A stretch of 64,000 bases of DNA, taken from Streptomyces barkulensis. Lineage in GTDB: Bacteria; Actinomycetota; Actinomycetes; Streptomycetales; Streptomycetaceae. Within the stretch, counting starts at the first letter, position 1; each line of letters begins with the position of its first letter. The notes beneath the pieces are model-generated. The model made no database searches. It was not told where the DNA came from and worked only from the letters and a program-made list of their open reading frames with translations. The position numbers and the translations under genes were made by a program. Positions 44,543-60,483 of the stretch are shown piece after piece. Where the stretch lies: the NCBI RefSeq assembly GCF_002843305.1, contig NZ_PGSG01000105.1, positions 186,001 through 250,000 on the forward strand, in the 5' to 3' direction.

Positions 44543-45799
44543 ATGCGCGCTTCCGCGTTCGTCTACCCCTGGGACGTCGTCGGCGACCCGGCCGCCGCCC
44601 GCCGGATCGCCGACCTCGGCGTCGAGCAGGTCACCCTCGCCTCCGCCTACCACTCCACCAGGGCGCTCACCCCCCGCCATCCGCGCCACCGTGTCGTCTC
44701 CGCCCGGCACTCCGCCGTCTACTACCCGGCCGACCCGGCCCGCTGGGAGGGCCGGCGACTGCGTCCGTACACGCAGGACTGGGTCGCGGGCGAGGACCCG
44801 TACGGTGAGGCCGCGGCGGCTCTGGCCGACGCCGGGCTGGAGGTGCACTCCTGGGTGATCCTCGCCCACAACACCCGGCTCGGGGGCGAGCACCCGGATC
44901 TGACCGTGCGCAACGCCTACGGCGACCACTACCCCTGGGCGCCCTGCGTCGCACGGGAGGAGGTGCGCGCCTATGCCGCCGCCCTGGCCGCCGAGGCCGC
45001 CGTGCGGCCCGGTGCGCGCGGGGTGGAGCTGGAGTCCTGCGGCTGGTACGGGCTGGGGCACCTGAGCGCCCACGACAAGACCGGCGGGGTGCGGCTGGAC
45101 GGAGCCGGCCAGTACCTGATGTCGCTGTGCTTCTGCCCGGAGTGCGAGGCGGGGTACGCCGCGCACGGCGCCGATCCCGAGCGGCTGCGGCGTGCCGCGG
45201 CCGCCGCGCTGGAGCCGCTGTGGCGCGGGGAGCGGGGGGAGCGTGAGGAGCGCGAGGGGCGCGAGGGGCGCGAGGGGCGCGAGAAGGTGTCCGGCGGACG
45301 CGCCCAGGAGTGGGGGGAGGTGGAGAAACTGCTGGGGCAGGAGCTCGCCCGGGCTGCGGCCGCCTGGCGCGATCAGATAGCGAGCGCTTTCCAAACCGAG
45401 GTTGTGACAGCCGTGCGGAAGGCCGCCGAGGCCCGGCGGACGGAAGGGTTCCGGGTGCTGCTGCACGCCGATCCGGCGCCCCATCGCTGCGGCGCCAACG
45501 TCGGTGTGGACCCCGCTGCCGTCCTCGCCCTGGCCGACGGGGTGGTGCTGCCGTGCACCGGGGGCGGCGCCGAACGCGAGGCCGTCCTGGCGCCCTTCGC
45601 CCCGTACCGCACCCCCTCCACCGTGCTCGCCGCCAACTTCACGGTGGTCGGCGGGATGGGCGGGCGCCCTGCGGAACTGGCCGGAGACGCCGCGCACGCC
45701 CGGGAGTTGGGGGCGACCGAGCTTCGGCTGTACCACGCCGGCCTGGCCGGTGACGCGGACCTGGCGGCCGTGCGCGCCGCGCTGTCCCGCCTGGACTGA
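44543..45799 (+). CDS. Uncharacterised protein, probable glycoside-hydrolase-like TIM barrel
   Basis: 418 residues, cytoplasmic (no signal peptide). I cannot place it in a named family. The pattern of alternating helices and strands (VEQVTLASAYHSTRAL; GLEVHSWVILAHNTRL; GARGVELESCGWYGLGH; GFRVLLHADPAPHRCG) suggests a TIM barrel, with Glu in VELESCG and Asp in HADPAP as possible catalytic residues. A Cys-rich spot LCFCPECEAGY could bind metal. A 9-bp repeat (45254-45280) adds GRE triplets in a charged linker. RBS AAGGAG precedes ATG 44543. It opens the pectin/sugar cluster. Confidence 0.72.
   Translation: MRASAFVYPWDVVGDPAAARRIADLGVEQVTLASAYHSTRALTPRHPRHRVVSARHSAVYYPADPARWEGRRLRPYTQDWVAGEDPYGEAAAALADAGLEVHSWVILAHNTRLGGEHPDLTVRNAYGDHYPWAPCVAREEVRAYAAALAAEAAVRPGARGVELESCGWYGLGHLSAHDKTGGVRLDGAGQYLMSLCFCPECEAGYAAHGADPERLRRAAAAALEPLWRGERGEREEREGREGREGREKVSGGRAQEWGEVEKLLGQELARAAAAWRDQIASAFQTEVVTAVRKAAEARRTEGFRVLLHADPAPHRCGANVGVDPAAVLALADGVVLPCTGGGAEREAVLAPFAPYRTPSTVLAANFTVVGGMGGRPAELAGDAAHARELGATELRLYHAGLAGDADLAAVRAALSRLD
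45254..45280. repeat. 9-bp repeat GAGGGGCGC, three copies
   Basis: In-frame in the 44543 gene, encoding EGR/GRE-type residues in a charged linker. Confidence 0.8.
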
Positions 45800-46118: not shown

Positions 46119-46796
46119 ATGAGAGCCCCCCTGACCGGTCTCGCACCGGTACCCGTCCCCTCCAGGACGCAGTACGTCATGGAGCATCTGACCCACGCCA
46201 TCCTCACCGGGCAGCTCCCACCCGGGCAGCCGCTGGTGGAGACCGAGCTGGCCGCGAGATTCGGCGTGTCCAAGACCCCGGTCCGCGAGGCGCTGAAGAC
46301 CCTCGCGGGCCGCGGGCTGGTCGTGATGAGCGAGTACAAGGGCGCCACCGTGCGCACCGTGGACGCCTCGATGGCCCGTTCGGTCTACGACGTGCGGCTG
46401 CTGCTGGAGCCGGAGGCGCTGCGCCGCACCGTCACGGCGAAGGCGGACCTGGCCGGGGCCCGGGCCGCGCTGGAGCGGGCCGACGCCGCCGCCGACCGGG
46501 CCGACCGCTCGCTGGCCAACCGGGACTTCCACCGGGCCCTGTACCTGCCCTGCGGCAACCCGCTGCTGACGCGGATGCTCGACGACCTGCGCGACCAGGC
46601 GGCCCTGGTGTCCACCGTCGCCTGGGAGGCCGTGCCCTCCTGGGAGCACGAGGCCGCCGAGCACCGGGAGATCCTCGCCCGTGCCCTGGGCGGGGACGCC
46701 GACGGCGCGGCCCGGCTGCTGCGCGACCACATCGAGGGATTCGTCCGCCGGGCCTTCCCGGCCATGGAGAACCAGGAAGGTCAGGTCCAGGCATGA
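46119..46796 (+). CDS. GntR-family regulator with FCD domain
   Basis: 225-residue repressor-type regulator. The winged helix is at about 15-85 (MEHLTHAILTGQLPPGQPLV; LAARFGVSKTPVREALKTL) and is followed by an all-helical FCD ligand domain with metal-binding residues (NRDFHRALYLPCGNPLL; EHREILARALGGD). FCD regulators typically sense sugar acids. ATG 46119 (MRAPLTGLAPVPVPSRTQ) is chosen since further upstream in-frame codons lie inside the palindrome. It overlaps the next gene by 4 nt and so is co-transcribed with the enzymes it probably controls. Confidence 0.92.
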   Translation: MRAPLTGLAPVPVPSRTQYVMEHLTHAILTGQLPPGQPLVETELAARFGVSKTPVREALKTLAGRGLVVMSEYKGATVRTVDASMARSVYDVRLLLEPEALRRTVTAKADLAGARAALERADAAADRADRSLANRDFHRALYLPCGNPLLTRMLDDLRDQAALVSTVAWEAVPSWEHEAAEHREILARALGGDADGAARLLRDHIEGFVRRAFPAMENQEGQVQA

Positions 46797-47710
46797 CGGA
46801 CTTCTCCCACCGGCGTGCCGCGCTCGCCGATGTCGTGGCGATCCCGGTCACACCGTTCGACGAGCAGGGCCGGCTGGACGCCGACACCTACCGGGCCCTG
46901 GTCCGCCGGCTGCTGGACGCCGGGATCCGCGCCGTCACCCCCAACGGCAACACCAGCGAGTTCTACTCCCTCACCCCCGCCGAGCGGCGGCTGGAGGTCG
47001 AGCTGACCGTGGCCGAGGTCGAGGAGGCCGGAGGGAGGGCCGAGGTCGTCGTGGGCGTCGGCCACGACCCGGCCACCGCGGTCGCCGCCGCCGAGCAGGC
47101 CCGCGAGGCCGGGGCCGGCATGGTGATGGTCCACCAGCCGGTCAACCCCTATGTCTCGCAGGCCGGCTGGGTGGACTACCACCGGGCCGTCGCCGAGGCC
47201 GTCCCGGAGGTGGGCGTCGTCCCCTACCTGCGCAACCCCCTCATCGAGGGCGCGGCCCTCGCCCGGCTCGGCGAGGCGTGTCCCAACGTCATCGGCGTCA
47301 AGTACGCCGTCCCCGACGCCGCGCGCTTCGCGGCCTTCGCCCGCGACGCCGGCGCGGACCGCTTCGTGTGGGTGGCCGGACTCGCCGAGCTGTACGCGCC
47401 GGCCTACTTCGCCTGCGGCGCCACCGGCTTCACCTCGGGTCTGGTCAACGTCTCCCCGCGGATCTCGCTGGAGATGCTCCGCGCCCTGCGGGCGGGGGAC
47501 TTCGGCGCCGCGATGGAGGTGTGGGAGAGCATCCGAGTCTTCGAGGACCTGCGCGCCGCACAGCAGTCGGCCAACAACGTCTCCGTCGTCAAGGAGGCCC
47601 TGGCCCACCTCGGCCTGTGCCGCCGCGACGTCCGCCCGCCGAGCCGGACGCTGCCCGAGGAGCAGCGCGCCGAGATCGCCGGGATCGTCAAGGGATGGGA
47701 GGCGGCATGA
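46793..47710 (+). CDS. DHDPS-family dehydratase/aldolase of sugar-acid catabolism
   Basis: 305-residue class I aldolase-fold enzyme. Motifs: IPVTPFDEQGRLDADTYRALV, TPNGNTSEFYSLTPAERR (the GTTGE-like loop replaced by GNTSEF), and the Schiff-base lysine in VIGVKYAVPDA. In context it would convert a 2-keto-3-deoxy aldonate (for example L-2-keto-3-deoxyarabonate) to 2-oxoglutarate semialdehyde, or 5-dehydro-4-deoxyglucarate to the same product with loss of CO2. It is not the lysine-pathway DapA, which is encoded at 35.5 kb. It overlaps both neighbours by 4 nt. Confidence 0.85.
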   Translation: MTDFSHRRAALADVVAIPVTPFDEQGRLDADTYRALVRRLLDAGIRAVTPNGNTSEFYSLTPAERRLEVELTVAEVEEAGGRAEVVVGVGHDPATAVAAAEQAREAGAGMVMVHQPVNPYVSQAGWVDYHRAVAEAVPEVGVVPYLRNPLIEGAALARLGEACPNVIGVKYAVPDAARFAAFARDAGADRFVWVAGLAELYAPAYFACGATGFTSGLVNVSPRISLEMLRALRAGDFGAAMEVWESIRVFEDLRAAQQSANNVSVVKEALAHLGLCRRDVRPPSRTLPEEQRAEIAGIVKGWEAA

Positions 47711-49464
47711 CCGAGCAGCACGGCCGAGGCGACGGCCCCCGCGCCCGCCGCGCCCCCGGGGAGCTGCGCAGCCACCAGTGGTACGGCACCGACGGGCTGC
47801 GCTCCTTCAGCCACCGCGCCCGCACCCGGCAGCTCGGCTACCTCCCCGAGGAGCACCTGGGCAAGCCGGTCATCGCGATCCTCAACACCTGGTCCGACAT
47901 CAACCCCTGCCACCAGCACCTGCGCGAGCGCGCCGAGGCGGTCAAGCGCGGGGTGTGGCAGGCCGGCGGCTTCCCCCTGGAGTTCCCCGTCTCCACCCTC
48001 TCGGAGACCTTCCAGAAGCCCACCCCCATGCTCTACCGCAACCTGCTCTCCCTGGAGACCGAGGAACTGCTGCGCTCCTACCCGGTGGACGGCGCGGTGC
48101 TGATGGGCGGCTGCGACAAGACCACCCCCGCCCTGCTGATGGGCGCGGCCTGCGTCGACCTGCCCACCGTCTTCGTCCCCGCCGGGCCCATGCTGCGCGG
48201 CCACTGGCGCGGCGAGACCCTCGGCTCGGGCACCGACATGTGGAAGTACTGGGACGACAAGCGCGCCGGTCTCATCGGCGACTGCGAGATGGCCGAACTG
48301 GAGTGCGGCCTGGCCCGCTCGCCCGGCCACTGCATGACCATGGGCACCGCCTCCACCATGACCGGCGCGGCCGAGGTGCTGGGCGTGACCATGCCCGGAG
48401 CGTCCTCCATCCCCGCCGTCGACTCCGGCCACTCCCGGATGGCCGCCGCGGCCGGGCGCCGGATCGTGGAGATGGCCTGGACCGACCGCAGGCTCTCCAC
48501 CGTCCTGACCCGTGAGGCGTACGAGGACGCCGTCGCCGCCGTGTGCGCGCTGGGCGGCTCCACCAACGCCGTCATCCATCTGATCGCCATGGCCGGGCGG
48601 TCGGGCGTCGGCCTCACCCTGGACGACTTCGACCGGATCGCCCGCACCACGCCCGTGCTGGCCAACCTCCGGCCCGGCGGGAAGTACCTGATGGAGGACT
48701 TCCACTACGCGGGCGGCATGCCCGGCTTCCTCTCCCGGCTGCGAGGCCACCTCCACCTGGAGCGGCCCACCGTCGCCCACGACACGCTGCGCGAGCAGAT
48801 CGCCGGCGCCCTCGTCCACGACGACGACGTCATCCGCACCGCCGACAACCCGCTCGCGGCCGAGGGAGGCGTGGCCGTACTGCGCGGCAACCTCGCCCCG
48901 GACGGCGCGGTCATCAAGCACATCGCCGCCGAGCAGCACCTGATGAAGCACACCGGCCCGGCGGTCGTCTTCGACGACTACCGCACCATGCAGGCCACCA
49001 TCAACGACCCGGACCTGGGCGTCACCGCCGAGAGCGTACTGGTGCTGCGCGGCTCCGGACCGCTGGGCGGACCGGGCATGCCGGAGTACGGGATGCTGCC
49101 GATCCCCGACCACCTGCTCAAGCAGGGCGTGCGCGACATGGTCCGCCTCTCCGACGCCCGGATGAGCGGCACCAGCTACGGCGCCTGCGTCCTGCACATC
49201 GCCCCCGAGTCCCATGTGGGCGGGCCGCTGGCCCTGGTGGAGACCGGCGACCTGATCACCCTCGACGTGGCCGCCCGCACCCTGCGCCTGGAGATCGACG
49301 ACGCCGAACTGGAACGCCGGCGCGCCGCCTGGCGCCCGCCCGGGCGGCGCTACGGGCGCGGCTACGGGGCGCTGTACGAGGAGCACATCACCCAGGCCGA
49401 CACCGGCTGCGACTTCGCCTTCCTCGCCCGGCCCGGCGAGGTCCCCGAACCCTACGCGGGCTGA
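47707..49464 (+). CDS. IlvD/Edd-family sugar-acid dehydratase (aldonate dehydratase type)
   Basis: 585-residue Fe-S dehydratase. Closest by eye to L-arabinonate/D-xylonate dehydratases rather than branched-chain IlvD: LRSHQWYGTDGLRSFSHR at the start, then ILNTWSDINPCHQHL, GGCDKTTPALLMGA and SPGHCMTMGTASTM, which carry the three cluster cysteines. RLSDARMSGTSYG near the C-terminus is also diagnostic. It should convert an aldonate to its 2-keto-3-deoxy form, feeding the DHDPS-family enzyme encoded just upstream with a 4-nt overlap. The Fe-S cluster links it to the suf operon only in the general sense. Confidence 0.9.
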   Translation: MTEQHGRGDGPRARRAPGELRSHQWYGTDGLRSFSHRARTRQLGYLPEEHLGKPVIAILNTWSDINPCHQHLRERAEAVKRGVWQAGGFPLEFPVSTLSETFQKPTPMLYRNLLSLETEELLRSYPVDGAVLMGGCDKTTPALLMGAACVDLPTVFVPAGPMLRGHWRGETLGSGTDMWKYWDDKRAGLIGDCEMAELECGLARSPGHCMTMGTASTMTGAAEVLGVTMPGASSIPAVDSGHSRMAAAAGRRIVEMAWTDRRLSTVLTREAYEDAVAAVCALGGSTNAVIHLIAMAGRSGVGLTLDDFDRIARTTPVLANLRPGGKYLMEDFHYAGGMPGFLSRLRGHLHLERPTVAHDTLREQIAGALVHDDDVIRTADNPLAAEGGVAVLRGNLAPDGAVIKHIAAEQHLMKHTGPAVVFDDYRTMQATINDPDLGVTAESVLVLRGSGPLGGPGMPEYGMLPIPDHLLKQGVRDMVRLSDARMSGTSYGACVLHIAPESHVGGPLALVETGDLITLDVAARTLRLEIDDAELERRRAAWRPPGRRYGRGYGALYEEHITQADTGCDFAFLARPGEVPEPYAG

Positions 49465-49577: not shown

Positions 49578-50543
49578 ATGGCCCTCACCGCCGTGCCGAA
49601 GAAGCGCCCCCTGCCGGGGAGGCCGGGGAAACCGGGGAAGCCGGGAAAGCAGGGGAAGACCGGGCTCACCGGGAAGCGCGGCCTGCCGTACCTGCTGATC
49701 GCGCCCGCCGGGCTGCTGATGCTGGGCTTCATCGCCTACCCGATGCTCAGCGTCCTCTACTACAGCCTCCAGCACTACAACGTCACCAAGCCCTGGCGGA
49801 ACGGCTTCGCGGGTCTGGACAACTTCCGGGAGATCTTCTTCGAGGATCCGCTGTTCTGGCAGACCCTCGCCTTCAGCGCCAAGTGGGTCGTCGCCGAGGT
49901 CGGGCTCCAGCTCGTCTTCGGCCTGGCGCTCGCCCTGATCGTCAATCAGACGTTCGTCGGCCGCGGCATCGCCCGGGCCCTGGTCTTCTCGCCCTGGGCC
50001 GTCTCCGGTGTGCTCACCACCACCATCTGGATCCTGCTGTACAACCCCTCCACGGGCCTGAGCCGCTACCTGGCGGACGCCGGCATCGGCGAGTACGGCA
50101 CCTCCGTCCTCTCCGACACCGGGACCGTCTTCTGGGCCGCCGTGCTGGCCGAACTGTGGCGCGGCGTCCCCTTCTTCGCGATCCTCATCCTCGCCGACCT
50201 GCAGTCCATCTCCAAGGACCTGTACGAGGCGGCCTCGGTGGACGGCGCCGGCCGCTTCCGGCAGTTCTGGCACATCACCCTGCCGCACCTGAAGGACGCG
50301 ATCATCCTCTCCACCCTGCTGCGCGCGGTGTGGGAGTTCAACAACGTCGACCTGCTCTACACCCTCACCGGCGGCGGACCGGCCGGCGTGACCACCACGC
50401 TCCCGCTCTACGTCGCCAACACCGGGATCGAGGGCCACGACTTCGGCTACGCCTCCGCGCTGACCACCGTGGCCTTCGTGATCCTCTTCTTCTGCTCGAT
50501 CCTCTATCTGCGCCTGAGCAAGTTCGGAGGCGACGACAAGTGA
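49578..50543 (+). CDS. Sugar ABC transporter permease (MalF/UgpA type)
   Basis: 321-residue membrane subunit of a carbohydrate importer (CUT1 type). A basic N-terminus with PGKPGKPGKQGK is followed by six hydrophobic segments (LLIAPAGLLMLGFIAYPMLS first). The cytoplasmic EAA loop is YEAASVDGAGRFRQFWHITLPHL, which docks the ATPase. CUT1 permeases in Streptomyces share a general MsiK-type ATPase encoded elsewhere, in line with no ATPase gene here. It overlaps the second permease by 4 nt. Confidence 0.94.
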   Translation: MALTAVPKKRPLPGRPGKPGKPGKQGKTGLTGKRGLPYLLIAPAGLLMLGFIAYPMLSVLYYSLQHYNVTKPWRNGFAGLDNFREIFFEDPLFWQTLAFSAKWVVAEVGLQLVFGLALALIVNQTFVGRGIARALVFSPWAVSGVLTTTIWILLYNPSTGLSRYLADAGIGEYGTSVLSDTGTVFWAAVLAELWRGVPFFAILILADLQSISKDLYEAASVDGAGRFRQFWHITLPHLKDAIILSTLLRAVWEFNNVDLLYTLTGGGPAGVTTTLPLYVANTGIEGHDFGYASALTTVAFVILFFCSILYLRLSKFGGDDK

Positions 50544-51448
50544 CCGCGGCGATCGTGGAGAAGGGCGCCCAGGCGCCCGCCCCGGCCGACGGGGAGACCC
50601 CGCCCCCGGCCCGCAGGAAGGCACGGCAGCGCAAGCTCGACGACGGGCCGCCGCGCTGGCAGATCTACCTGCCCCTGGGCATCTACCTGCTCTTCACCCT
50701 CATCCCCTTCTACTGGATGCTGCTGTTCGCGCTCCGCCCCTCCGGTTCCACCTCGCTGGTGCCCTGGCCGATGACCGGCGAGCACTTCGAGAAGGTCTGG
50801 ATGGAGCGCAGCTTCGGCACCTACTTCCTCAACAGCACCCAGGTCGGCATCGCCTCGATGGTGATGACGATGGCGGTGGCCCTGGCCGGCGGGTACGCCC
50901 TGGCGCGCTTCCGGTTCCGGATGAAGAACGCCTTCATGCTGGCGCTGCTGTGCTCGCAGTTCATCCCCGGCGCGCTGATGCTGGTCCCGCTGTTCGAGAC
51001 CTTCCGGGGCCTCCAGCTCATCAACTCCATGTGGAGTGTGATCATCGCGGAGACGGTCTTCCAGCTTCCGCTGTCGATGATCCTGATCAGCGGCTTCATC
51101 AAGAACGTCCCCGAGTCGCTGGAGGAGGCCGCCTGGGTGGACGGCTGCTCCCGGCTGCGGGCGTTCGCGGCCATCGTGCTGCCGATGCTGCGGCCCGGGC
51201 TGATCGCGGTGGGCTCCTTCGCCTTCGTGCACAGCTGGAACCACTTCCTGTTCGCCCTGATGTTCCTCTCCTCGCAGGAGAAGCAGACGATCCCGGTGGG
51301 CCTGAACACCCTCATCGGCTCGGACAGCGTGGACCTGGGCGCGCTCGCGGCGGGCGGTGTGGTCGCCGCCGTGCCCGTGGTGATCATCTTCGCCTTCATC
51401 CAGAAGTGGCTGATCACCGGCTTCAGCGCTGGGGCGGTGAAGGGCTGA
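50540..51448 (+). CDS. Sugar ABC transporter permease (MalG/UgpE type)
   Basis: 302-residue second permease of the CUT1 importer. GTG 50540 overlaps the previous stop (GTGA). The N-terminal 35 residues are cytoplasmic and basic, then six hydrophobic segments follow (IYLPLGIYLLFTLIPFYWML first). The EAA loop is LEEAAWVDGCSRLRAFAAIVLPM. The C-terminus ends FAFIQKWLITGFSAGAVKG, the usual MalG-type end. It overlaps the next start by 1 base (TGATG). Confidence 0.94.
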   Translation: MTAAIVEKGAQAPAPADGETPPPARRKARQRKLDDGPPRWQIYLPLGIYLLFTLIPFYWMLLFALRPSGSTSLVPWPMTGEHFEKVWMERSFGTYFLNSTQVGIASMVMTMAVALAGGYALARFRFRMKNAFMLALLCSQFIPGALMLVPLFETFRGLQLINSMWSVIIAETVFQLPLSMILISGFIKNVPESLEEAAWVDGCSRLRAFAAIVLPMLRPGLIAVGSFAFVHSWNHFLFALMFLSSQEKQTIPVGLNTLIGSDSVDLGALAAGGVVAAVPVVIIFAFIQKWLITGFSAGAVKG

Positions 51449-52734
51449 TGGCACCCGCCTCCACCGCGGCCGACGCCGCTGCCCCCGCCCTGCCGGTGGT
51501 GCTGGCCGGCGCCCGCGGCCACGGCCGCCGGCACCTGGACAACATCCGCCGCCTCGCGCGGGAGGGACTGGTCCGCCCGGCCGGGATCTGCGAGCTGACC
51601 CCGCTGGACGAGGGCGAGCTGGCCGGCCTCGGCAGCCCCGAGCAGTCGGCCGACTTCGCCGCACTGCTGGAGAGCACCGGCGCGCGGATCGCCGTGGTCT
51701 GCACCCCGATCCACACCCACACCGACCTGGCGCTGGCCGCCGCCGAGCGGGGCGTGCACCTGCTGCTGGAGAAACCGCCCGCGCCTTCGTACGCGGAGTT
51801 CGAGCGGATGGTGAAGGGGGTGCGGGCGGCGGGCGTCGCCTGCCAGATCGGCTTCCAGTCGCTGGGCTCGCACGCCGTCACCGCGGTGCGCGACCTGATC
51901 GCCGACGGCGCGATCGGCGCGGTGCGCGGCATCGGCGCGGCCGGCGCCTGGAGCCGGGACCTGGCCTACTGGGAGCGCGCTCCCTGGGCCGGCCGGCGCC
52001 GCCTGGAGGGCCGGGACGTGGTGGACGGCGTCCTCACCAACCCCCTGGCCCACGCGGTGGCCACCGCGCTGCGCATCGACGGCGGCGACCGCGCCGAGGA
52101 CGTCGCCGGCATCGAGCTGGAGCTGTACCGGGCCAACGCCATCGAGTCCGACGACACCTCCTGCGTCCGGCTGCGCACCGCGCACGGCGACGGGACGGCG
52201 GGCGAGATCACCGCGGCCGTGACCCTGTGCGCCGAGCGGCCCGGCGAGCCCTACGTCGTCGTCCACGGCACCGGCGGCCGGATCACCTTCTGGTACAAGC
52301 AGGACCGCCTGCTGCTGGAACGCGACGGGCACGCGCCCGAGACCACCGAGCACGCCCGCACCGACCTGCTGCGCAACCTCGTGGCACACCTCGCCGACGG
52401 CGAGGAGCTGCTGGTGCCGCCCGAGCGCACCGGCGCCTTCATGCGGCTGGTGGAGGCCGTGCGCACCGCGCCCGAGCCGGTCCCGCTGCCCGGCGGCGCC
52501 TGGCGCACCGAGCCCGGCACCGGCAACGGTACCGGCGCCGAGGGCTCCGCCCGGCGCGTCGTCACCGGCATCGACGAGCTGGTCGCGGCGGGGGCCGAGG
52601 AGCTGGCCCTGTACTCCGAGCTGTCCGACGGCTCCGGCCCGCGCGCTCCCTGGGCCGCCCCGGCGGCCCGGCCCGGACCGCAGCCCGGACCGCAGCCCGG
52701 GCGGGAGCCCGAGCGGAAGGGAGCCGGGGCATGA
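51448..52734 (+). CDS. Gfo/Idh/MocA-family oxidoreductase
   Basis: 428-residue NAD(P)-dependent sugar oxidoreductase. The N-terminal Rossmann fold starts VVLAGARGHGRRHLDNI, with a divergent GARGHG loop, and continues IAVVCTPIHTHTDLALAAAERGVHLLLEKPPA, carrying the EKPP catalytic-lysine motif. The C-terminal domain has VDGVLTNPLAHAVATALRI. The last about 45 residues are a Pro/Gly/Arg-rich tail. It could oxidise the imported sugar to a lactone, the first step otherwise absent from this cluster; this is inference. It overlaps the DUF6807 gene by 4 nt. Confidence 0.88.
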   Translation: MAPASTAADAAAPALPVVLAGARGHGRRHLDNIRRLAREGLVRPAGICELTPLDEGELAGLGSPEQSADFAALLESTGARIAVVCTPIHTHTDLALAAAERGVHLLLEKPPAPSYAEFERMVKGVRAAGVACQIGFQSLGSHAVTAVRDLIADGAIGAVRGIGAAGAWSRDLAYWERAPWAGRRRLEGRDVVDGVLTNPLAHAVATALRIDGGDRAEDVAGIELELYRANAIESDDTSCVRLRTAHGDGTAGEITAAVTLCAERPGEPYVVVHGTGGRITFWYKQDRLLLERDGHAPETTEHARTDLLRNLVAHLADGEELLVPPERTGAFMRLVEAVRTAPEPVPLPGGAWRTEPGTGNGTGAEGSARRVVTGIDELVAAGAEELALYSELSDGSGPRAPWAAPAARPGPQPGPQPGREPERKGAGA

Positions 52735-53657
52735 CCGCGCCGCACCCGGAAACCCCCGGGACCCCCGGGACCCCCGGGACCCCCGGGACCCCCGGGACCT
52801 CCGAAGCCGCCGGGTCCGTCGAACTGCGCTGCGCCGGAAGGACCGTGGCCCGCTACGAGTACCGGCCGCGCCTGGCCGGGAGGGAGTCGCCGCGCCCCTA
52901 CCTGCACCCCGTACGCACCCTGGGCGGCACCGCCGTCACCGAGCTGCGGCCCGCCGACCATGTGCACCACCTCGGGGTGAGCATGGCCGTCCCCGACGTC
53001 GGCGGCGCCAACTTCTGGGGCGGGCGCACCTTCGTCCGCGACCGGGGACCGGTCGAGCTGGACAACCACGGGCACCAGGACCACCTGGGCTGGACCGACC
53101 TGAGTGAGAACGGCTTCACCGAGGAGGTCGCCTGGCAGCGGGACGGGCGGCGGCTGCTGACCGAGCGCCGCACCGTCACCGCGCGGGCGCTGGACGCGGA
53201 CTGCTGGGCGCTGGACTTCACCACCGAGCTCACCAACGTCTGCGGCGAGGAGCTGTCGGTGGGCAGCCCGGCCACCAACGGCCGCCCCGGCGCCGGCTAC
53301 GGCGGCTTCTTCTGGCGTCCGCCCGTCGGCCCCCGCCCGCCGGAGGTGTTCACCGGGGACGCCGAGGGCGAGGAGGCGGTGCACGGCTCGCGGGCGCCCT
53401 GGCTGGCCATGGCGACCGACGCCTGGACGCTGGTGTTCGCCGGGGCCACCGAGGACACCCGCCGCGACCGATGGTTCGTACGCGCCGCCGAGTACCCGGG
53501 CGTCGGCTCCGCGCTGGCCTGGGACGGCAGACTGCCGCTGCCGGCCGGGCGGCCGGTGGTGCGGCGGGTGGTCACCGGTGTCGCCGACGGGCGGCTGGAG
53601 CGGGCCGCCGCCGCCGGGGTCGCCGCCCGGCTCACCGGGAAGGAGGGGTCCCGATGA
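52731..53657 (+). CDS. DUF6807 (so-called methane oxygenase PmoA-like) protein
   Basis: 308-residue cytoplasmic protein of a family often labelled PmoA but unrelated in function to methane oxidation. Recognisable stretches: RPYLHPVRTLGGTAVTELRP, HVHHLGVSMAVPDVGGANFWGG, DLDNHGHQDHLGW-like DNHGHQDHLGWTDL and the later GGFFWRPP. The many conserved histidines suggest a metal centre in a beta-sandwich. The family commonly sits with Gfo/Idh genes in sugar clusters, as here. A lactonase or epimerase role is possible but unproven. The N-terminus holds a GTP repeat from a 9-bp minisatellite. Confidence 0.8.
   Translation: MTAPHPETPGTPGTPGTPGTPGTSEAAGSVELRCAGRTVARYEYRPRLAGRESPRPYLHPVRTLGGTAVTELRPADHVHHLGVSMAVPDVGGANFWGGRTFVRDRGPVELDNHGHQDHLGWTDLSENGFTEEVAWQRDGRRLLTERRTVTARALDADCWALDFTTELTNVCGEELSVGSPATNGRPGAGYGGFFWRPPVGPRPPEVFTGDAEGEEAVHGSRAPWLAMATDAWTLVFAGATEDTRRDRWFVRAAEYPGVGSALAWDGRLPLPAGRPVVRRVVTGVADGRLERAAAAGVAARLTGKEGSR
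52752..52796. repeat. 9-bp minisatellite ACCCCCGGG, five copies
   Basis: In frame near the start of the DUF6807 gene, encoding PGT triplets. Confidence 0.9.
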
Positions 53658-55189
53658 CGGCCCTCCCGGTGGCCCCGGCCCCCACCGCACCGGCCGGCAC
53701 GTACCGCAACCCGGTGCTGGACGCCGACTGGTCCGACCCCGACGCCATCCGCGTCGGCGACGACTACTACCTGACCGCCTCCAGCTTCGGCCGCGCCCCC
53801 GGCCTGCCGATCCTCCACTCCCGGGACCTGGTCAACTGGCGGATCGTCGGCCACGCCCTGAAGCGGCTGGAGCCGGAGCAGGCGTTCACCGTCCCGCGCC
53901 ACGACTGCGGGGTGTGGGCGCCGTCCATCCGCCACCACGCCGGCCGCTTCTGGATCTTCTGGGGCGACCCCGACCACGGCATCCACCAGATCAGCGCCGA
54001 GGACGTACGGGGCCCGTGGAGCAGACCGCACCTGCTGAAGGCCGGCCGCGGACTGATCGACCCCTGCCCGCTGTGGGACACCGACGGCCGCGCCTACCTG
54101 GTGCACGCCTGGGCGAAGTCCCGCTCCGGGATCAAGAACCGGCTGACCGGCCACCGGATGAGCCCCGACGGCCGCGAACTGCTCGACGCCGGCCGCACGG
54201 TCGTCGACGGCGACGCGCTGCCCGGCTGGTTCACCCTGGAGGGCCCCAAGCTCTACCGGCACGGCGGCTGGTACTGGATCTTCGCCCCGGCCGGGGGAGT
54301 GGAGACCGGCTGGCAGGGCGCGTTCCGCTCCCGGGAGGTCTTCGGCCCCTACGAGGAGCGCATCGTGCTCGCCCAGGGCCGCAGCGGCGTCAACGGCCCG
54401 CACCAGGGGGCGTGGGTGCGGGCGGCCGACGGATCCGACTGGTTCCTGCACTTCCAGCAGCGCGGCGCGTACGGGCGGGTGGTGCACCTGCAGCCGATGG
54501 ACTGGGACGAGCACGGCTGGCCGGTGATCGGCGACGGGGGAGAACCCGTCGCCGCCCACCGTCCGCCCGTGGACACCGAGCGCCCCGCGGCCCCCGCCAC
54601 CGACGACGACTTCCCCGGCGGCCGCTTCGGCCACCAGTGGTCCTGGACCGCCAATCCGGGGCAGGGCTGGACGGTCGCCCACGGCGGTGACGGGCTGCGG
54701 CTGGTCTGCCGCCGCACCGCCGACGCCCAGGACCTGCGCCGGCTGCCGAACGTACTGGTCCAGCGGCTGCCCGGCCGCCCGTGCGCGGTCGAGGTCGAGC
54801 TGCGGCTGGACGGCACGGGCAGCGGTGCCAGGGCCGGACTGGCCGTACTGGGCGACGCGTTCGCCTGGATCGGCCTGGAGCGGGACGCCTCGGGGACGAC
54901 CCGCCTGGTCCACCGCTTCGCCGAACCCGCCGCCGCGCACGAGCGGGACGCCGCGCGCTCCCGGCCCGCGCCGGGCGGCCGCGCCCGCCTGCGCGTCGAA
55001 CTCCTCCCCGGTGCCCGCTGCCTGTTCTCGGCGCGCACCGGGGACGACACCGGCTTCCTCCCCTCCGGCCCGCCCTTCGCCGCGACCTCATGGCGCTGGG
55101 TGGGCGCCCAGCTCGGCCTGTTCGCCGCCGCTCCCGAAGGCGGCGAGCCGGCCGGAACCGCGGACTTCACCCGGTTCCGCGTCACCTGA
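53654..55189 (+). CDS. Glycoside hydrolase family 43 protein, intracellular
   Basis: 511 residues without a signal peptide. The N-terminal five-bladed propeller has the GH43 triad context: YRNPVLDADWSDPDAIRVGD (base Asp), RGLIDPCPLWDTDGRAYLVH (pKa-modulating Asp) and TLEGPKLYRHGGWYW (acid Glu). From about 330 a C-terminal beta-sandwich follows (FGHQWSWTANPGQGWTV; RARAG-type LGDAFAWIGLERD), as in beta-xylosidase/arabinofuranosidase members. It would cut imported arabino- or xylo-oligosaccharides released from pectin side chains. It overlaps DUF6807 by 4 nt. Confidence 0.9.
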   Translation: MTALPVAPAPTAPAGTYRNPVLDADWSDPDAIRVGDDYYLTASSFGRAPGLPILHSRDLVNWRIVGHALKRLEPEQAFTVPRHDCGVWAPSIRHHAGRFWIFWGDPDHGIHQISAEDVRGPWSRPHLLKAGRGLIDPCPLWDTDGRAYLVHAWAKSRSGIKNRLTGHRMSPDGRELLDAGRTVVDGDALPGWFTLEGPKLYRHGGWYWIFAPAGGVETGWQGAFRSREVFGPYEERIVLAQGRSGVNGPHQGAWVRAADGSDWFLHFQQRGAYGRVVHLQPMDWDEHGWPVIGDGGEPVAAHRPPVDTERPAAPATDDDFPGGRFGHQWSWTANPGQGWTVAHGGDGLRLVCRRTADAQDLRRLPNVLVQRLPGRPCAVEVELRLDGTGSGARAGLAVLGDAFAWIGLERDASGTTRLVHRFAEPAAAHERDAARSRPAPGGRARLRVELLPGARCLFSARTGDDTGFLPSGPPFAATSWRWVGAQLGLFAAAPEGGEPAGTADFTRFRVT

Positions 55190-55340: not shown

Positions 55341-56687
55341 ATGAGTGGAAACATCAGCCGCAGACCCCGTGCCCGCACCCTGCTGGCCCTGGGCATCAGC
55401 GCGTCCCTCGCCCTGACCGCCACCGCCTGCGGCGGCTCGGGCACCGAGACGGGCAGCGAGGGCGAGGGCGAGGGGAAGGTCGTCTTCTGGGACAACAACG
55501 GCGGTGTGCGCACCGAGGTCTGGAAGAAGATCATCACCGAGTTCGAGAAGGAGAACCCCGAGATCGACGTGGAGTACGTCGGCATACCCATCGCCGACGT
55601 GCAGTCCAAGTACGACACCGCCATCCAGGGCGGCGGCGACAGCCTGCCGGACGTCGGCATGGTCGGCACGGCCTACCTCGCCAACATGGTCGCCCAGGGC
55701 GCCCTGGACCCGGTCGGCGACCGGATCGAGGGAGGCCCCCTGAAGGGCAAGCTGGTCAACGGCATGGTCGAGAGCGTCAAGGCCGCCGGGGGCGAGAAGG
55801 ACCAGATGTTCACCGTCCCGACCTCCGCCAACCAGGGCGTGCTGTGGTACCGCACCGACCTGTTCGAGGCGGCCGGCCTGGAGGGCCCCACCACCTGGGA
55901 GAACTTCTACACGGCCGCCGAGGAGCTGACCGACAGGAAGAACAACCGGTTCGGCTTCACCATCCGCGGCGGCGCGGGCTCCGTCGCCCAGGCGCTGGAG
56001 ATGATGTACGCCCAGTCGGGCATCGAGAGCTTCTGGGACGGCGACAGGACCACCGTCAACGACCCGAAGAACGTCGAGGCGCTGGAGAAGTACGTCGGTC
56101 TGTACAACAAGTACACACCCAAGGCCGACCTGAACAACGACTTCACCAAGATGGTCGCCACCTTCACCGGCGGTGAGGTCGGGATGCTCCAGCACAATCT
56201 GGGCTCCTACACCGACCATGTGAAGGCGTTCGGCGAGGACGGCGTGGACGGACTGCCGATGCCGGCCTCCTCCGAGGGCGGCCCGCGCACCCTGGTCTCC
56301 AACCCGGTCGACGGGATGGGGCTGTTCAAGTCCAGCGGGAACAAGGCGGCGGCCTGGAAGTTCATCGAGTTCGCCGCGTCCGCCGAGATGAACAGCCTCT
56401 GGAACGAGTCGGCGGGCGCCATCCCGGCCCACACCGACGCCGCGGACGACGAGTGGATCAACAAGGCCAAGCCCACCAAGGCGGCCATGGAGTCGCTCGA
56501 CGACCCGAACACCAAGATCGTCCAGCTGCCGTACTACCTGCCGGACTGGAACAGCATCAGCAAGGCCGACACCGAGCCCAACTTCCAGAAGCTGCTGCTG
56601 GGGCGGATGACGGCCAAGGAGTTCGCCGACGACCTGGCGAAGCGGCTCAACGAGGCCCAGGCCGAGTGGAGCGAGCAGAAGGGCTGA
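55341..56687 (+). CDS. ABC transporter sugar-binding lipoprotein
   Basis: 448-residue extracellular solute-binding protein (family 1). The signal peptide ends in a lipobox-like LTATAC followed by GGS, so Cys32 or so is the lipidated residue. The mature protein starts with an acidic linker and VVFWDNNGGVRTEVWKKIITEFEKENPEIDVEYV, given here as positions about 47-80. ATG 55341 has AGGAAAGAG upstream. It is the binding partner of the two permeases at 49.6-51.4 kb but is placed about 4 kb downstream of them, after the cytoplasmic enzymes. Confidence 0.94.
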   Translation: MSGNISRRPRARTLLALGISASLALTATACGGSGTETGSEGEGEGKVVFWDNNGGVRTEVWKKIITEFEKENPEIDVEYVGIPIADVQSKYDTAIQGGGDSLPDVGMVGTAYLANMVAQGALDPVGDRIEGGPLKGKLVNGMVESVKAAGGEKDQMFTVPTSANQGVLWYRTDLFEAAGLEGPTTWENFYTAAEELTDRKNNRFGFTIRGGAGSVAQALEMMYAQSGIESFWDGDRTTVNDPKNVEALEKYVGLYNKYTPKADLNNDFTKMVATFTGGEVGMLQHNLGSYTDHVKAFGEDGVDGLPMPASSEGGPRTLVSNPVDGMGLFKSSGNKAAAWKFIEFAASAEMNSLWNESAGAIPAHTDAADDEWINKAKPTKAAMESLDDPNTKIVQLPYYLPDWNSISKADTEPNFQKLLLGRMTAKEFADDLAKRLNEAQAEWSEQKG

Positions 56688-56825
56688 CGCCCCGCCGCGG
56701 CGGGGCGGTACCGCACCGGACCGCCCCGCCGCCCTCGCCCGGGGGCGGGCCGGCCCGCCGCGCCGTCCGCGACCACCGGGCGCCCCCCCCCGGAACCCGG
56801 GGCGTCCCCGGGCCCTCCTCGCACA

Positions 56826-56915
56826 ACCCGCACGACCCGCACGACCCGTACGACCCGTACGACCCGTACGACCCGTACGACCCGCACGACCCGTACGACC
56901 CGCACGACCCGTACG
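56826..56915. repeat. 9-bp minisatellite ACCCGYACG, ten copies
   Basis: Ten units between the binding-protein gene and the pectate lyase gene. Units are either ACCCGTACG or ACCCGCACG. It would lie in the leader of the pectate lyase mRNA. A C9 run precedes it (56783-56791). Confidence 0.92.
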
Positions 56916-56940
56916 ACCGAACACGTCCTAAGGAGTCGCA

Positions 56941-58287
56941 GTGCAGAGAAAAGTGTGCCAAGCGCGTGTCATAGCCCTGACAGGGTGTGCCTCGCTCGCC
57001 CTGGCGGCCCTCGCCGTACCCGCCCAGGCGGCACCGCGCCACGGCGGTGACCAGGTCCGCGCCGTCCTGCCGAAGAACGACGGCTGGGCCTCGGCCGAGG
57101 GCGGCACCACCGGCGGCGCCGCCGCCGACGCCGACCACGTCTTCACCGTCACCAACCGCGCCGAGCTGGCCGCAGCGCTGAACGACGGTGACGACACGCC
57201 GAAGATCATCAAGGTCAAGGGCACCGTCCATGGCAATGCCGACGACCAGGGGAGGCCGCTGACCTGCGAGGACTACCAGCGCGACGGCTACACCCCGGAG
57301 AAGTACCTCCAGGCGTACGACCCCGAGGTCTGGGGCGAGAACGAACCCTCGGGGCCGATGGAGGAGGCCCGAGCCGCCTCGGCCGCCGAGCAGAACAAGC
57401 GGGTCAAGCTCAAGGTCGGCTCCAACACCACCCTGATCGGGGTGGGCGAGGACGCCACCATCCTCGGCGCCAGCCTCCAGATCCGGGGCGTGGAGAACGT
57501 CATCGTCCGCAACATCACCTTCGAGGACACCTACGACTGCTTCCCGCAGTGGGACCCCACCGACGGCGAGAACGGAGCCTGGAACTCGGAGTACGACAAC
57601 GTCGTCGTCCACGGCTCCCGCCACGTCTGGATCGACCACAACACCTTCACCGACGGCCGCCGCCCCGACAGCGAACAGCCGCGCTACTTCGGGCAGCTCT
57701 TCCAGCAGCACGACGGCCTGCTCGACATCGTGCGCGGCGCCGATCTGGTGACGGTGAGCTGGAACGTCTTCACCGAGCACGACAAGACCATCCTGCTGGG
57801 CAACAGCGACAAGGCCGAGGCCGACGACCGCGGCAAGCTGCGCACCACCTTCCACCACAACCTCTTCGAGGACGTCAACGAGCGTGCCCCGCGCGTGCGT
57901 TTCGGCCAGGTGGACGCCTACAACAACCACTTCAAGCAGAACGAGGGCGCCAAGTACGGCTACACCTGGGGCATCGGCAAGGAGGCCGCGCTCGTCGCCG
58001 AGCACAACGCCTTCACCCTCCACAAGGGTCTGACCCCGGCCGACAGCATCCGCCAGTGGACCCCCGGCACCTCCATGACCGAGCGGAACAACTGGGTCAA
58101 CGGCCGGTACGTGGACCTGCTGGGCGCGTACAACGCCGCCAACCCCGACCGCCTCCTGGGCGACGACGCGGGCTGGACTCCCACCCTGCGCACCCGCGTC
58201 CACCACCCGCTGGCCGTCCCGTACCTGGTGGACCGGTACGCCGGGGCAGGGGAGATCAAGGTCAGGGACGGAAAGGGCCGCAGGTGA
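56941..58287 (+). CDS. Secreted pectate lyase (PL1 family)
   Basis: 448 residues with a Sec signal peptide (RVIALTGCASLALAALAVPAQA, written here as positions 9-30). It cleaves polygalacturonate by beta-elimination, calcium dependent. PL1 marks: NTTLIGVGEDATILGAS, NVIVRNITFEDTYDCFPQWDP with calcium-binding Asp residues, HVWIDHNTFTDG (the wiDH motif), and the catalytic arginine region VNERAPRVRFGQVDAYNN. GTG 56941 has AAGGAG at 56930-56935. The stop overlaps the pectinesterase start by 4 nt. Confidence 0.94.
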   Translation: MQRKVCQARVIALTGCASLALAALAVPAQAAPRHGGDQVRAVLPKNDGWASAEGGTTGGAAADADHVFTVTNRAELAAALNDGDDTPKIIKVKGTVHGNADDQGRPLTCEDYQRDGYTPEKYLQAYDPEVWGENEPSGPMEEARAASAAEQNKRVKLKVGSNTTLIGVGEDATILGASLQIRGVENVIVRNITFEDTYDCFPQWDPTDGENGAWNSEYDNVVVHGSRHVWIDHNTFTDGRRPDSEQPRYFGQLFQQHDGLLDIVRGADLVTVSWNVFTEHDKTILLGNSDKAEADDRGKLRTTFHHNLFEDVNERAPRVRFGQVDAYNNHFKQNEGAKYGYTWGIGKEAALVAEHNAFTLHKGLTPADSIRQWTPGTSMTERNNWVNGRYVDLLGAYNAANPDRLLGDDAGWTPTLRTRVHHPLAVPYLVDRYAGAGEIKVRDGKGRR

Positions 58288-59387
58288 GCGGGGCGCCGAC
58301 GAGCAGGCCACGAGTGGGCACCACCCGGCGCGGCGCGCTTCTGGCCGGAGCCGGCGCCGCCCTCGGTGTGGCCCTGGCGGGCCGGGCCCACGCCGGGCCC
58401 GCCCACGCCGGGCCGCGGCTGAGGGTCGCACCGGACGGCGGCGGCGACTTCGCCACCGTGCAGGAGGCCGTGGACGCCACGCCCGACCATCCCGGGACGC
58501 CCTGGACCATCGTTCTGGCCCCCGGCGTCCACCGCGAGACGGTGAAGATTCCGGAGAGCAAGACCGGGCTGACCCTGCTGGGCGGCACCGGCGATCCCCG
58601 CGACACCGTCATCGTCCACGACAACGCGGCGGGGACCCCCAGACCCGACGGGTCCGGGACCTACGGCACCTCCGGCAGCGCCACGGTCACCGCCCGGCCC
58701 GACGGCTTCACCGCCCGGCGGATCACCTTCGCCAACGACTGGCTGCGCGCCGACCACCCGGAGATCACCAGCGGCACCCAGGCGGTGGCGATCAAGGTGA
58801 TGGGTGACCGGTCGCTGTTCGACCGCTGCCGCTTCCTCGGCCACCAGGACACCCTGTACGCCGACACGCGGCATGTCTCGCTCACCGCGCGGCAGTTGTT
58901 CCACCGCTGCTATGTCGAGGGGGACGTGGACTTCGTCTTCGGCCGGGCGACCGCGGTCTTCCACGGCTGCGAACTGCGCACCCTGGACCGGGAGGTGGAC
59001 TTCACCCCGTACGGGTTCGTCTTCGCGCCGTCGACGGCCGCCGGCACCCGGTACGGCTACCTTGCCCACCGCTGCCGGATCACCACCACCGCGCCGGCCG
59101 GCGCGTACAAGCTGGCCCGGCCCTGGGTGCCCAGCAGCGATCCGGGGGCCCGGCCGGGCCTGGTGGTGCGCGACAGCCTGCTGGGGGCCGGCATCGACGC
59201 GGCCCGGCCGTACGCGAACATGCGGGAGCAGTACCCGTGGCAGGGGTTCTTCTTCCGGGAGTGGGCCAACCGGGGGCCGGGCGCGGCCGTCGCCGATCCG
59301 GCCGAGCGTCCGCGGCTGACGGCGGCCGGGGCCGCCGAGCACACGCCGGCGGCCTATCTGGGCGGCTGGCGTCCCGCGGTCGGCTGA
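58284..59387 (+). CDS. Secreted pectinesterase (CE8), Tat signal
   Basis: 367 residues. The N-terminus has a twin-arginine signal (TTRRGALLAGAGAALGVALA, about 13-32), so export is probably by Tat while its partner lyase uses Sec. Catalytic motifs of pectin methylesterase: SGTQAVAIKV, GHQDTLYADTRH with the general acid Asp region, CYVEGDVDFVFGRATAVF with the nucleophile Asp, and KLARPWVP with the Arg (usually GRPW). It removes methyl groups so that the lyase can cut. GTG 58284 overlaps the lyase stop. A 20-bp tandem duplication spans the stop codon. Confidence 0.92.
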   Translation: MSGAPTSRPRVGTTRRGALLAGAGAALGVALAGRAHAGPAHAGPRLRVAPDGGGDFATVQEAVDATPDHPGTPWTIVLAPGVHRETVKIPESKTGLTLLGGTGDPRDTVIVHDNAAGTPRPDGSGTYGTSGSATVTARPDGFTARRITFANDWLRADHPEITSGTQAVAIKVMGDRSLFDRCRFLGHQDTLYADTRHVSLTARQLFHRCYVEGDVDFVFGRATAVFHGCELRTLDREVDFTPYGFVFAPSTAAGTRYGYLAHRCRITTTAPAGAYKLARPWVPSSDPGARPGLVVRDSLLGAGIDAARPYANMREQYPWQGFFFREWANRGPGAAVADPAERPRLTAAGAAEHTPAAYLGGWRPAVG

Positions 59388-59655: not shown

Positions 59656-60483
59656 CTACAGGTGGCGGGTGGCCAGGGCGAGCCGGTCGCGCGCGTCGAA
59701 CAGGGCGTCCTTGATGGTCTGTTCGTGTGCGGGGGTCAGCCGTGCCACCGGGACCGAGCAGCTGATGGCGTCCCGTGCGGGGGTGCGGTAGGGGATGGCG
59801 ACGCCGAAGCAGCTCAGTCCCAGGGTGTTCTCCTCGCGGTCGACCGCGTAGCCCTGTTCGCGGATCTGGTGCAGTTCCTCGATGAGCTTGCCGCGGTCGG
59901 TGACGGTGTGCTCGGTCAGCGGTGCCAGGGTTTCGGGGAGCATCGCGCGGACCTGGTCGTCGTCGTAGGTGGCCAGCAGGGCCTTGCCCAGCGAGGTGGA
60001 GTGCGCGGGCAGGCGTCGTCCCACCCGGGTGAAGGGACGCAGGTAGTGCTGCGACTGCCGGGTGGCGAGGTAGACGACGTTGGTGCCGTCCAGCCGGGCG
60101 AGGTGGATGGTCTCGGTGGTGTCGTCGGAGAGCCGGTCCAGGGTGGGGCGGGAGGCGGCCACGACCTCGTCGCCGTCGATGTAGGAGGTGCCCACCAGCA
60201 GGGCGCGCACTCCGATGCCGTAGCGGGTGCCGGTGGCGTCGGTCTCGATCCAGCCCAGTTCCACGAGTGTGCGCAGCAGCATGTAGAGGCTGGACTTGGG
60301 GTAGCCGACGGCTTCCTGGACGGCGGCGAGGGTGTGCATGCCGGGCTGTCCGGCGAAGAACTCCAGCAGTTCCACGGTGCGTACCGCCGACTTGACCTGT
60401 GCCCCGCCCGCCTCCGGTTTCCTGCCGGGGGCGCCCCCGTGCGCAGAAGGCATCGACCTTGACCCTTTCGCTCGACCGGCCAT
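59656..60483 (-). CDS. IclR-family transcriptional regulator
   Basis: 275-residue regulator. The winged helix is at about 30-90 (VKSAVRTVELLEFFAGQPGM; LAAVQEAVGYPKSSLYMLLRTL). The C-terminal IclR effector domain follows (RPFTRVGRRLPAHSTSLGKALLATY; GYAVDREENTLGLSCFGVAIPY). Such proteins control aromatic or sugar-acid breakdown. It is divergent from the semialdehyde dehydrogenase gene across 164 bp holding a GTTC/GAAC palindrome. ATG 60481-60483 has GGGACT upstream; ATG 60453 is an alternative. Confidence 0.93.
   Translation of the reverse strand: MAGRAKGSRSMPSAHGGAPGRKPEAGGAQVKSAVRTVELLEFFAGQPGMHTLAAVQEAVGYPKSSLYMLLRTLVELGWIETDATGTRYGIGVRALLVGTSYIDGDEVVAASRPTLDRLSDDTTETIHLARLDGTNVVYLATRQSQHYLRPFTRVGRRLPAHSTSLGKALLATYDDDQVRAMLPETLAPLTEHTVTDRGKLIEELHQIREQGYAVDREENTLGLSCFGVAIPYRTPARDAISCSVPVARLTPAHEQTIKDALFDARDRLALATRHL

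Follow-up and report, generated by a model that had tools for sequence, protein, structure and literature searches.

A conserved Gfo/Idh and DUF6807 gene pair in a pectin operon of Streptomyces, with a possible oxidoreductive role in galacturonide use

We analyzed a stretch of 64,000 nucleotides from Streptomyces barkulensis (assembly GCF_002843305.1, contig NZ_PGSG01000105.1, positions 186,001 to 250,000; hereafter, the window), in which gene prediction places a gene for a Gfo/Idh/MocA oxidoreductase (w45, 428 amino acids) directly before a gene for a protein of the DUF6807 family (w46, 308 amino acids), with an overlap of 4 bases. The arrangement of these genes in other genomes supports the conclusion that the two form a genuine unit within a sugar-acid operon. 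We suggest, with a probability a little below 0.4, that the two proteins carry out an oxidoreductive step on pectin-derived galacturonides imported by the ATP-binding cassette (ABC) transporter of the operon, upstream of its sugar-acid dehydratase. This suggestion, in which an oxidation is followed by a cleavage, is unproven and draws on context and similarity.

The first-pass annotation had described the overlapping genes as lying between permeases and a GH43 gene in a non-phosphorylative sugar operon, and had named them as the only candidates for a missing sugar dehydrogenase and lactonase. The coordinates proved exact, IlvD/EDD and DHDPS-family genes are present, and w45 and w46 are the sole unassigned catalytic candidates between the transporter and the dehydratase. 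The overlap recurs widely. In a search of named genomes, we took the best 80 of 579 confirmed stretches as 80 loci, which by title are nearly all from Streptomyces, with a few close relatives; the DUF6807 protein of S. radiopugnans, for example, is 90% identical to w46. A Gfo gene is present in 79 of the 80 loci, overlapping the DUF6807 gene by 4 bases in 52 and by 1 base in 26, and lying 20 bases apart in 1. Since the arrangement is kept across these loci, we do not ascribe it to chance.

The association extends beyond Streptomyces. Among 296 genomes sampled from the phylum, DUF6807 is found in 16 and the Gfo type of the window (defined at E ≤ 1e-30) in 12, all 12 being among the 16. The two genes are adjacent in 10 of these 12 genomes (G000, G023, G128, G161, G182, G193, G246, G009, G075 and G225), are joined into a single natural fusion protein of 633 amino acids in G257, and are separated by about 11 kb in G204. 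In G225, DUF6807 and a LacI-like regulator form one protein, as judged by eye and by similarity. Similarly, for 99 of 106 DUF6807 proteins in the fetched loci, a Gfo gene lies within two genes, and the seven without one include a single gene seen twice in overlapping loci (L042 and L144) and one at the start of a contig (L048). A search of viral contigs found no relatives.

In the window, the pair belongs to a tightly packed run of genes, in which the preceding permease overlaps w45 by 1 base and w46 overlaps the GH43 gene by 4 bases. In order, this run and its neighbors are:

46179-46796, + strand: GntR/FCD transcription regulator
46793-47710, + strand: w41, DHDPS-family enzyme; nearest NCBIfam family 5-dehydro-4-deoxyglucarate dehydratase, below cut-off
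47695-49464, + strand: w42, IlvD/EDD sugar-acid dehydratase
49578-50543, + strand: first ABC sugar permease, by family match
50540-51448, + strand: second ABC sugar permease, by family match
51448-52734, + strand: w45 ("GfoA"), Gfo/Idh/MocA oxidoreductase by Pfam; proposed NAD(P)-dependent oxidation of a pectin-derived uronide
52731-53657, + strand: w46, DUF6807 protein; predicted galactose-mutarotase-like beta-supersandwich
53654-55189, + strand: GH43 glycosidase with a GH43_C2 domain; no signal peptide seen by eye
55341-56687, + strand: ABC solute-binding protein (SBP_bac_1)
56953-58287, + strand: pectate lyase (Pectate_lyase_4, PL1); signal peptide by eye
58314-59387, + strand: pectinesterase; signal peptide by eye
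59656-60375, - strand: IclR regulator by family match, a neighbor possibly outside the operon
60660-62177, + strand: w52, aldehyde dehydrogenase, a possible ketoglutarate-semialdehyde dehydrogenase; 52-55% identical to its counterpart in the galactarate-type modules of G257, G075 and G009

An Rfam scan of the window at gathering scores gave no match, and a promoter and terminator scan gave nothing usable at the w45-w46 pair.

Most of this operon is conserved in the 80 loci. Limiting the count for each gene to loci with enough flank (71-76 of 80), we found the GntR regulator in 76 of 76, the DHDPS, dehydratase and Gfo genes each in 75 of 76, and the solute-binding protein in 73 of 74; L084, in which DHDPS is missing, includes a stretch of N. 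Pectate lyase is present in 70 of 71 loci and is thus a more constant member than GH43, which is missing in 5 of 74 (present in 69); pectinesterase is found in 56 of 71. An aldehyde dehydrogenase lies near the operon in just 4 of 71 loci, and so is usually not next to it.

Two further genes accompany the operon. In 59 of 71 loci there is a GDSL-family gene, weakly like pectin acetylesterase, which usually separates the binding protein gene from that of pectate lyase; in the window, no gene is predicted at the corresponding place (56688-56952). Upstream, w39 (44543-45799, 418 amino acids) matches no Pfam or NCBIfam family at E ≤ 0.001 and is conserved at 60-90% identity in many of the Streptomyces loci.

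Outside Streptomyces, the gene content around the pair suggests that hexuronate use is the common theme, with differing downstream routes. In G204, one side of the locus holds a binding protein and permeases (assigned by similarity or unscanned), DUF6807, a PfkB protein like KDG kinase and KDPG aldolase, while the other side holds a Gfo protein, UxaC, an enolase, a fructuronate-reductase-like protein (314 bits against a cut-off of 603), the partner Gfo and a pectate-lyase-like gene; no DHDPS or KdgD gene was seen among the scanned neighbors. In G075, the pair and a LacI-like gene diverge from transporter-like genes, and nearby lie two more Gfo genes, DUF993, an AP-endonuclease-2-like protein, an extended short-chain dehydrogenase/reductase (SDR), a 5-dehydro-4-deoxyglucarate dehydratase (378 bits, cut-off 278), a galactarate-dehydratase-like enolase (237 bits, cut-off 500) and an aldehyde dehydrogenase 53% identical to w52. 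The gene order in G009 is that of G075, by similarity (its genes were not separately scanned). About 4 kb from the fusion gene of G257 are an SDR, a 5-dehydro-4-deoxyglucarate dehydratase (391 bits, cut-off 278), an enolase (234 bits) and an aldehyde dehydrogenase. The extended SDR may already be the uronate dehydrogenase of these galactarate modules, but in L146 its best match is 4id9 (E 7e-12), followed by GalE-like chains, with the uronate dehydrogenase 3rft at E 5e-8. Because the pair stands beside different hexuronate modules, its step looks independent of the downstream route, and it is hard, though possible, to reconcile such varied modules with the pair as one fixed step of a single route.

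Related genes were noted in other settings. S. barkulensis itself has a second Gfo/Idh-DUF6807 pair (L027:8031-10126, contig C107), which adjoins a gene of the erythromycin esterase family; its DUF6807 protein is 36% identical to w46, and no pectin gene was recognized beside it. A second, longer Gfo family (423-457 amino acids) occurs near DUF6807 genes in five loci (L144:7009-8301, L043:13346-14677, L044:15723-17096, L045:15530-16867 and L073:14230-15501), with 46-58% mutual identity, the L044 and L045 members being closer to each other; no dehydratase of the window type was seen in these loci. A pair of Gfo/Idh and DUF993 genes also recurs in DUF6807 loci (L042:4633-6929 and L044:17171-19554), with AP-endonuclease-2-like genes nearby.

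The Gfo protein is a clear member of its family, and its catalytic domain appears most like that of WlbA. w45 matches PF01408 (GFO_IDH_MocA) at 52.8 bits (cut-off 24) and PF22725 (GFO_IDH_MocA_C3) at 27.8 bits (cut-off 27), and carries at residues 108-110 an EKP sequence, which we take to be the lysine motif of the family. When a Gfo profile was compared with PDB, the best match was WlbA (profile positions 8-266 of 385, E 1e-21), running through the catalytic domain, with a common W-x-R...YY...W-x-G stretch and a common N-x3-H (N198-x3-H202 in w45), of which D-x3-H is the more usual form. Of 100 Gfo proteins encoded no more than two genes away from DUF6807, 99 carry a W-x-R...Y-[YFW]...W-x-G signature, as do 2 of 14 other Gfo proteins, although the expression was written after the proteins had been viewed, the Gfo set was found with a profile built from that same set, most of the 100 are orthologues, and one gene is counted twice among the 14 (in the overlapping loci L042 and L144). 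The exception among the 100 is the second Gfo of L037; the two others with the signature are the G204 partner and a protein at the end of its locus (L056). Type-B partner Gfo proteins keep the W-x-R stretch and not the N-x3-H. By this signature, chosen after the fact, the Gfo partners thus look WlbA-like.

A structure model of the Gfo protein (predicted local distance difference test, pLDDT, 89) ranks WlbA (3q2k) first (Z 31.8, 2.8 Å, 315 residues), in a tie with inositol/L-glucose dehydrogenase (Z 31.5), levoglucosan dehydrogenase and DgpA (both Z 31.1). For inositol/L-glucose dehydrogenase, with which the Foldseek order begins, there is also a structure with the C1 oxidation product L-glucono-1,5-lactone. 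Glucose-fructose oxidoreductase (Z 30.8), glucuronide-3-dehydrogenase (29.8) and L-arabinose 1-dehydrogenase (28.9) follow. The modelled structure alone does not settle which carbon is oxidized.

The DUF6807 protein is predicted to have the galactose-mutarotase-like supersandwich fold. w46 matches DUF6807 (PF14100) at 245 bits (cut-off 27) over profile positions 2-269 of 270 (in a slightly longer frame), and its first ~29 residues are a low-complexity tail. A sequence search of solved structures with DUF6807 yielded no match at a convincing E-value. The model, built from a 48-row alignment (mean pLDDT 89, predicted TM-score 0.90), gave ten Foldseek matches at E ≤ 0.001, all of them glycosidases (three galactosaminidase and seven beta-galactosidase entries), whose matching parts are presumably supersandwich domains. 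In structural comparison, the model resembles a galactosaminidase domain (Z 17.3, 3.2 Å, 217 residues) and a galactose mutarotase-like protein (Z 16.1, 3.0 Å, 205 residues), with mutarotase-like chains at Z 15-16 over 205-218 residues; no aldonolactonase is among the 50 structural matches listed. At the sequence level, DUF6807 was the sole convincing family in 10 members scanned (otherwise DUF6725 in one, E 0.019, and SpaA_2 in one, E 0.36); none of the 10 matched an aldose epimerase, and neither they nor w46 matched the SGL/SMP-30 lactonase domain.

We scored residue conservation in 19 divergent DUF6807 members (<58% identity to w46; 18 distinct, given the overlap of L042 and L144). Eleven polar or charged positions are kept in at least 16: Glu145, Arg196 and Arg251 in all 19, Asp76, His77, His80 and Tyr190 in 18, His59, Arg147 and Arg185 in 17, and Asp286 in 16. 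From the sequences, the conserved His, Asp, Glu and Arg residues look like an enzyme site. Pfam lists PF14100 as a family of unknown function, and the literature found for DUF6807, PF14100 or "PmoA family protein" reports no tested function in the portions available. The family seems once to have been named PmoA: one paper uses PF14100 as a PmoA model (PMC10291797) and another calls a PF14100 gene similar to methane oxygenase (PMC5342196). Given the predicted mutarotase-like beta-supersandwich fold, the use of PF14100 as a PmoA marker looks mistaken.

The genome context shows gaps that the pair might fill. Searches of the S. barkulensis genome gave no match to AraA, UxaC, GH88/105, KduI, PL22 or GH28. 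Among 121 Streptomyces, 73 carry an orthologue of the operon dehydratase, defined as a match above 900 bits (77 match in all, 4 of them solely via a 51-54% identical paralogue). UxaC is found in none of the 121, and PL22 in one, a non-carrier. GH88/105 (E ≤ 0.001) is found in 27 genomes, 22 of them among the 73 carriers and 5 among the 48 non-carriers. This leaves 51 carriers without GH88/105 or PL22 for splitting unsaturated digalacturonide; the GH28 search covered S. barkulensis alone, and other families that might split digalacturonides were not all searched. Beyond its absence from S. barkulensis, we dropped KduI as a marker of unsaturated uronate use, as it matches 118 of 121 Streptomyces (two genomes besides S. 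barkulensis are without it), probably because the family also covers an inositol enzyme.

A single conserved operon thus holds a pectate lyase, a pectinesterase, a binding-protein ABC transporter and the overlapping pair. We propose that the Gfo/Idh protein would oxidize a ring hydroxyl of the uronide, most likely at C3, with NAD(P)+, and that DUF6807, with its conserved His59, Asp76, His77, His80, Glu145, Arg185, Tyr190, Arg196 and Arg251, would act on the resulting keto-uronide, breaking the glycosidic bond by beta-elimination or net hydrolysis; the keto group would perhaps be reduced back by the same Gfo protein. The freed hexuronate would enter the host's own hexuronate module, which in Streptomyces would be the IlvD/EDD dehydratase and the KdgD-like DHDPS enzyme, after a C1 oxidation whose enzyme was not located. 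There is precedent in levoglucosan breakdown, described as a Gfo/Idh-type C3 oxidation followed by separate enzymes for beta-elimination, hydration and reduction (PMC7676230). A bolder form of the proposal, which we consider doubtful, is that DUF6807 is the founding family of a keto-uronide-cleaving enzyme in a mutarotase-like fold, which with Gfo/Idh, alongside or fused, constitutes a two-protein oxidoreductive glycosidase and frees Streptomyces and other Actinomycetota from the need for GH28, GH88/105 or PL22 in using pectate-lyase products. If DUF6807 does cleave oxidized uronides, a new fold would be added to the oxidation-elimination route of glycoside breakdown. The Gfo/Idh partner, the fold, the conserved residues and the pectin context together turn a domain of unknown function into a testable question.

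Several observations weigh against oxidation followed by cleavage, in addition to the limits on the signature and the structural tie given above. The beta-eliminases OGE and CGE are described as Mn TIM barrels, not supersandwiches (PMC10628242). No hydratase or re-reductase was recognized in the window operon, and no galacturonate C1 dehydrogenase was identified in Streptomyces, a gap that C1 oxidation by the Gfo protein would fill. The GH88/105 counts show no anticorrelation with the operon. Streptomyces sp. CNH099 (L073), the exception for most core genes, has DUF6807 and DHDPS without this Gfo or the dehydratase; in G225, the scanned genes are transporters and LacI-like genes, with no catabolic module recognized. 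Moreover, the best match of the G204 enolase is L-talarate/galactarate dehydratase (136 bits, below the cut-off of 500).

The first-pass annotation had assigned a C1 dehydrogenase and a lactonase to the pair. In its galacturonate form, the Gfo protein would be a galacturonate 1-dehydrogenase, DUF6807 would open the galactarolactone, the IlvD/EDD enzyme would dehydrate galactarate, the DHDPS enzyme would make ketoglutarate semialdehyde and an aldehyde dehydrogenase would finish the route. We consider this rather unlikely, and less probable than oxidation followed by cleavage; it is nonetheless a live rival because of the structural tie with an enzyme that oxidizes C1 of L-glucose and because of the G204 enolase, which, like the enolases of G075 and G257, matches L-talarate/galactarate dehydratase best, below cut-off. 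It would provide a complete route in Streptomyces, where UxaC is lacking, and it agrees with w41, which lies below both NCBIfam cut-offs for 5-dehydro-4-deoxyglucarate dehydratase (KdgD; 145 bits against 374 and 153 against 278), with KdgD, a hexarate enzyme, nonetheless its nearest NCBIfam model and its closest characterized relative among the PDB matches listed (60 of 120), in which two better matches carry a family name alone. Enolase or IlvD/EDD sugar-acid dehydratases recur beside DUF6807 (in the window and in L037), and a PF14100 gene adjoins an enolase-superfamily gene in a Verrucomicrobia cosmid, as reported in PMC5342196. In contrast, G204 combines UxaC and fructuronate-reductase-like genes with KDG-kinase-like and KDPG-aldolase genes and no DHDPS or KdgD seen among the scanned neighbors, a route that needs neither C1 oxidation nor a lactonase, which weakens the assignment, as do the WlbA-like signature and the mutarotase-like fold of a family with no lactonase among its 50 listed matches. 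Galactarolactonases (UxuL and UxuF) are already known (PMC6353982), the extended SDR of the galactarate modules may already supply the uronate dehydrogenase, and the release of galacturonate from imported oligomers would be left unexplained. The accompanying claim that no other dehydrogenase or lactonase exists held for the operon, where none was recognized, but the S. barkulensis genome has one SMP-30/gluconolactonase on another contig; moreover, lactone opening can be spontaneous, though slow (PMC9795676).

Arabinose or xylose, which the first-pass annotation named along with galacturonate, now seem less likely. A C1 dehydrogenase and lactonase that feed an L-arabinonate or D-galactonate dehydratase would fit the score of w42, which exceeds the NCBIfam equivalog cut-off for L-arabinonate dehydratase (920 bits against 882), the GH43 gene adjoining the pair and the lack of AraA in S. 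barkulensis, and the Gfo/Idh family includes known 1-dehydrogenases for L-arabinose and for D-galactose (PMC9795676). That source describes the solved L-arabinonate dehydratase as most efficient with D-fuconate and as taking pentonates and hexonates of one C2-C3 configuration. The solved enzyme matches w42 at 616 bits, whereas it fits a Streptomyces paralogue (L150) better (766 bits for 5j83, 763 for 9evv), even though this paralogue misses the NCBIfam cut-off (836 bits). Galactarate has that same C2-C3 configuration; thus, arabinose cannot be deduced from the w42 label. Furthermore, GH43 is dispensable (absent from 5 of 74 loci, compared to 1 of 71 for pectate lyase), the DHDPS protein is nearest KdgD, and L-arabinose 1-dehydrogenase scores Z 28.9 against the Gfo model, compared to 31.8 for the top match. 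We also dropped the idea that the operon replaces AraA, which occurs in 17 of 121 Streptomyces, since its presence in 11 of 73 carriers and 6 of 48 non-carriers shows no replacement pattern. We therefore regard the arabinose or galactose route as improbable.

We regard as similarly improbable, if not slightly more so, a role for DUF6807 as a mutarotase or epimerase, by which the Gfo dehydrogenase would receive its substrate as the right anomer or epimer. The structural matches to galactose-mutarotase-like proteins and the natural fusion of DUF6807 with Gfo would suit such a role, but the same fold matches many glycosidases, and the 10 members scanned gave no aldose epimerase match in sequence. 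We prefer oxidation followed by cleavage over galacturonate C1 oxidation, the arabinose or galactose route and a mutarotase.

The dehydratase paralogue has a setting of its own. In L149, L150 and L153, it occurs with a gene whose start looks fumarylacetoacetate hydrolase-like by eye (the L150 gene has no NCBIfam match at 1e-15), and no dehydrogenase or lactonase was recognized adjoining it.

The Azospirillum L-arabinose 1-dehydrogenase (6jnj, 6jnk, 7cgq) belongs to the Gfo/Idh family and would suit the role first assigned to w45, but full-length likeness was not found: the match covers residues 69-176 alone (E 8e-4), and the enzyme ranks 48 of the 50 entries listed for the Gfo model. Its Asn173 (PMC9795676) probably corresponds to His202 of w45, a correspondence inferred rather than aligned. 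The galactose mutarotase-like proteins 3q1n (Z 16.1) and 4bze (Z 15.0) have the fold predicted for DUF6807; no sequence similarity was detected, and the likeness is of fold alone. P2B11 glucuronide-3-dehydrogenase (8tdi), a uronide 3-dehydrogenase by its entry name, has the Gfo/Idh fold and is among the best Foldseek matches, although it is only 18-19% identical to the Gfo protein. WlbA (3q2k, 3q2i), a 3-dehydrogenase of a uronic-acid sugar solved with NADH and UDP-GlcNAcA, differs in being biosynthetic and in using a nucleotide sugar, and is ~20% identical to the Gfo protein, but it is the best profile match and shares the W-x-R...W-x-G and N-x3-H pattern, and WlbA-type enzymes are described as 3-dehydrogenases (PMC10622841). 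Finally, although the levoglucosan pathway (LgdA/B1/B2/C) acts on a neutral sugar, and its cleaving and hydrating enzymes are annotated as sugar phosphate isomerases rather than DUF6807, it resembles our proposal in joining an NAD-dependent C3 oxidation to separate cleaving, hydrating and reducing proteins, as described in PMC7676230.

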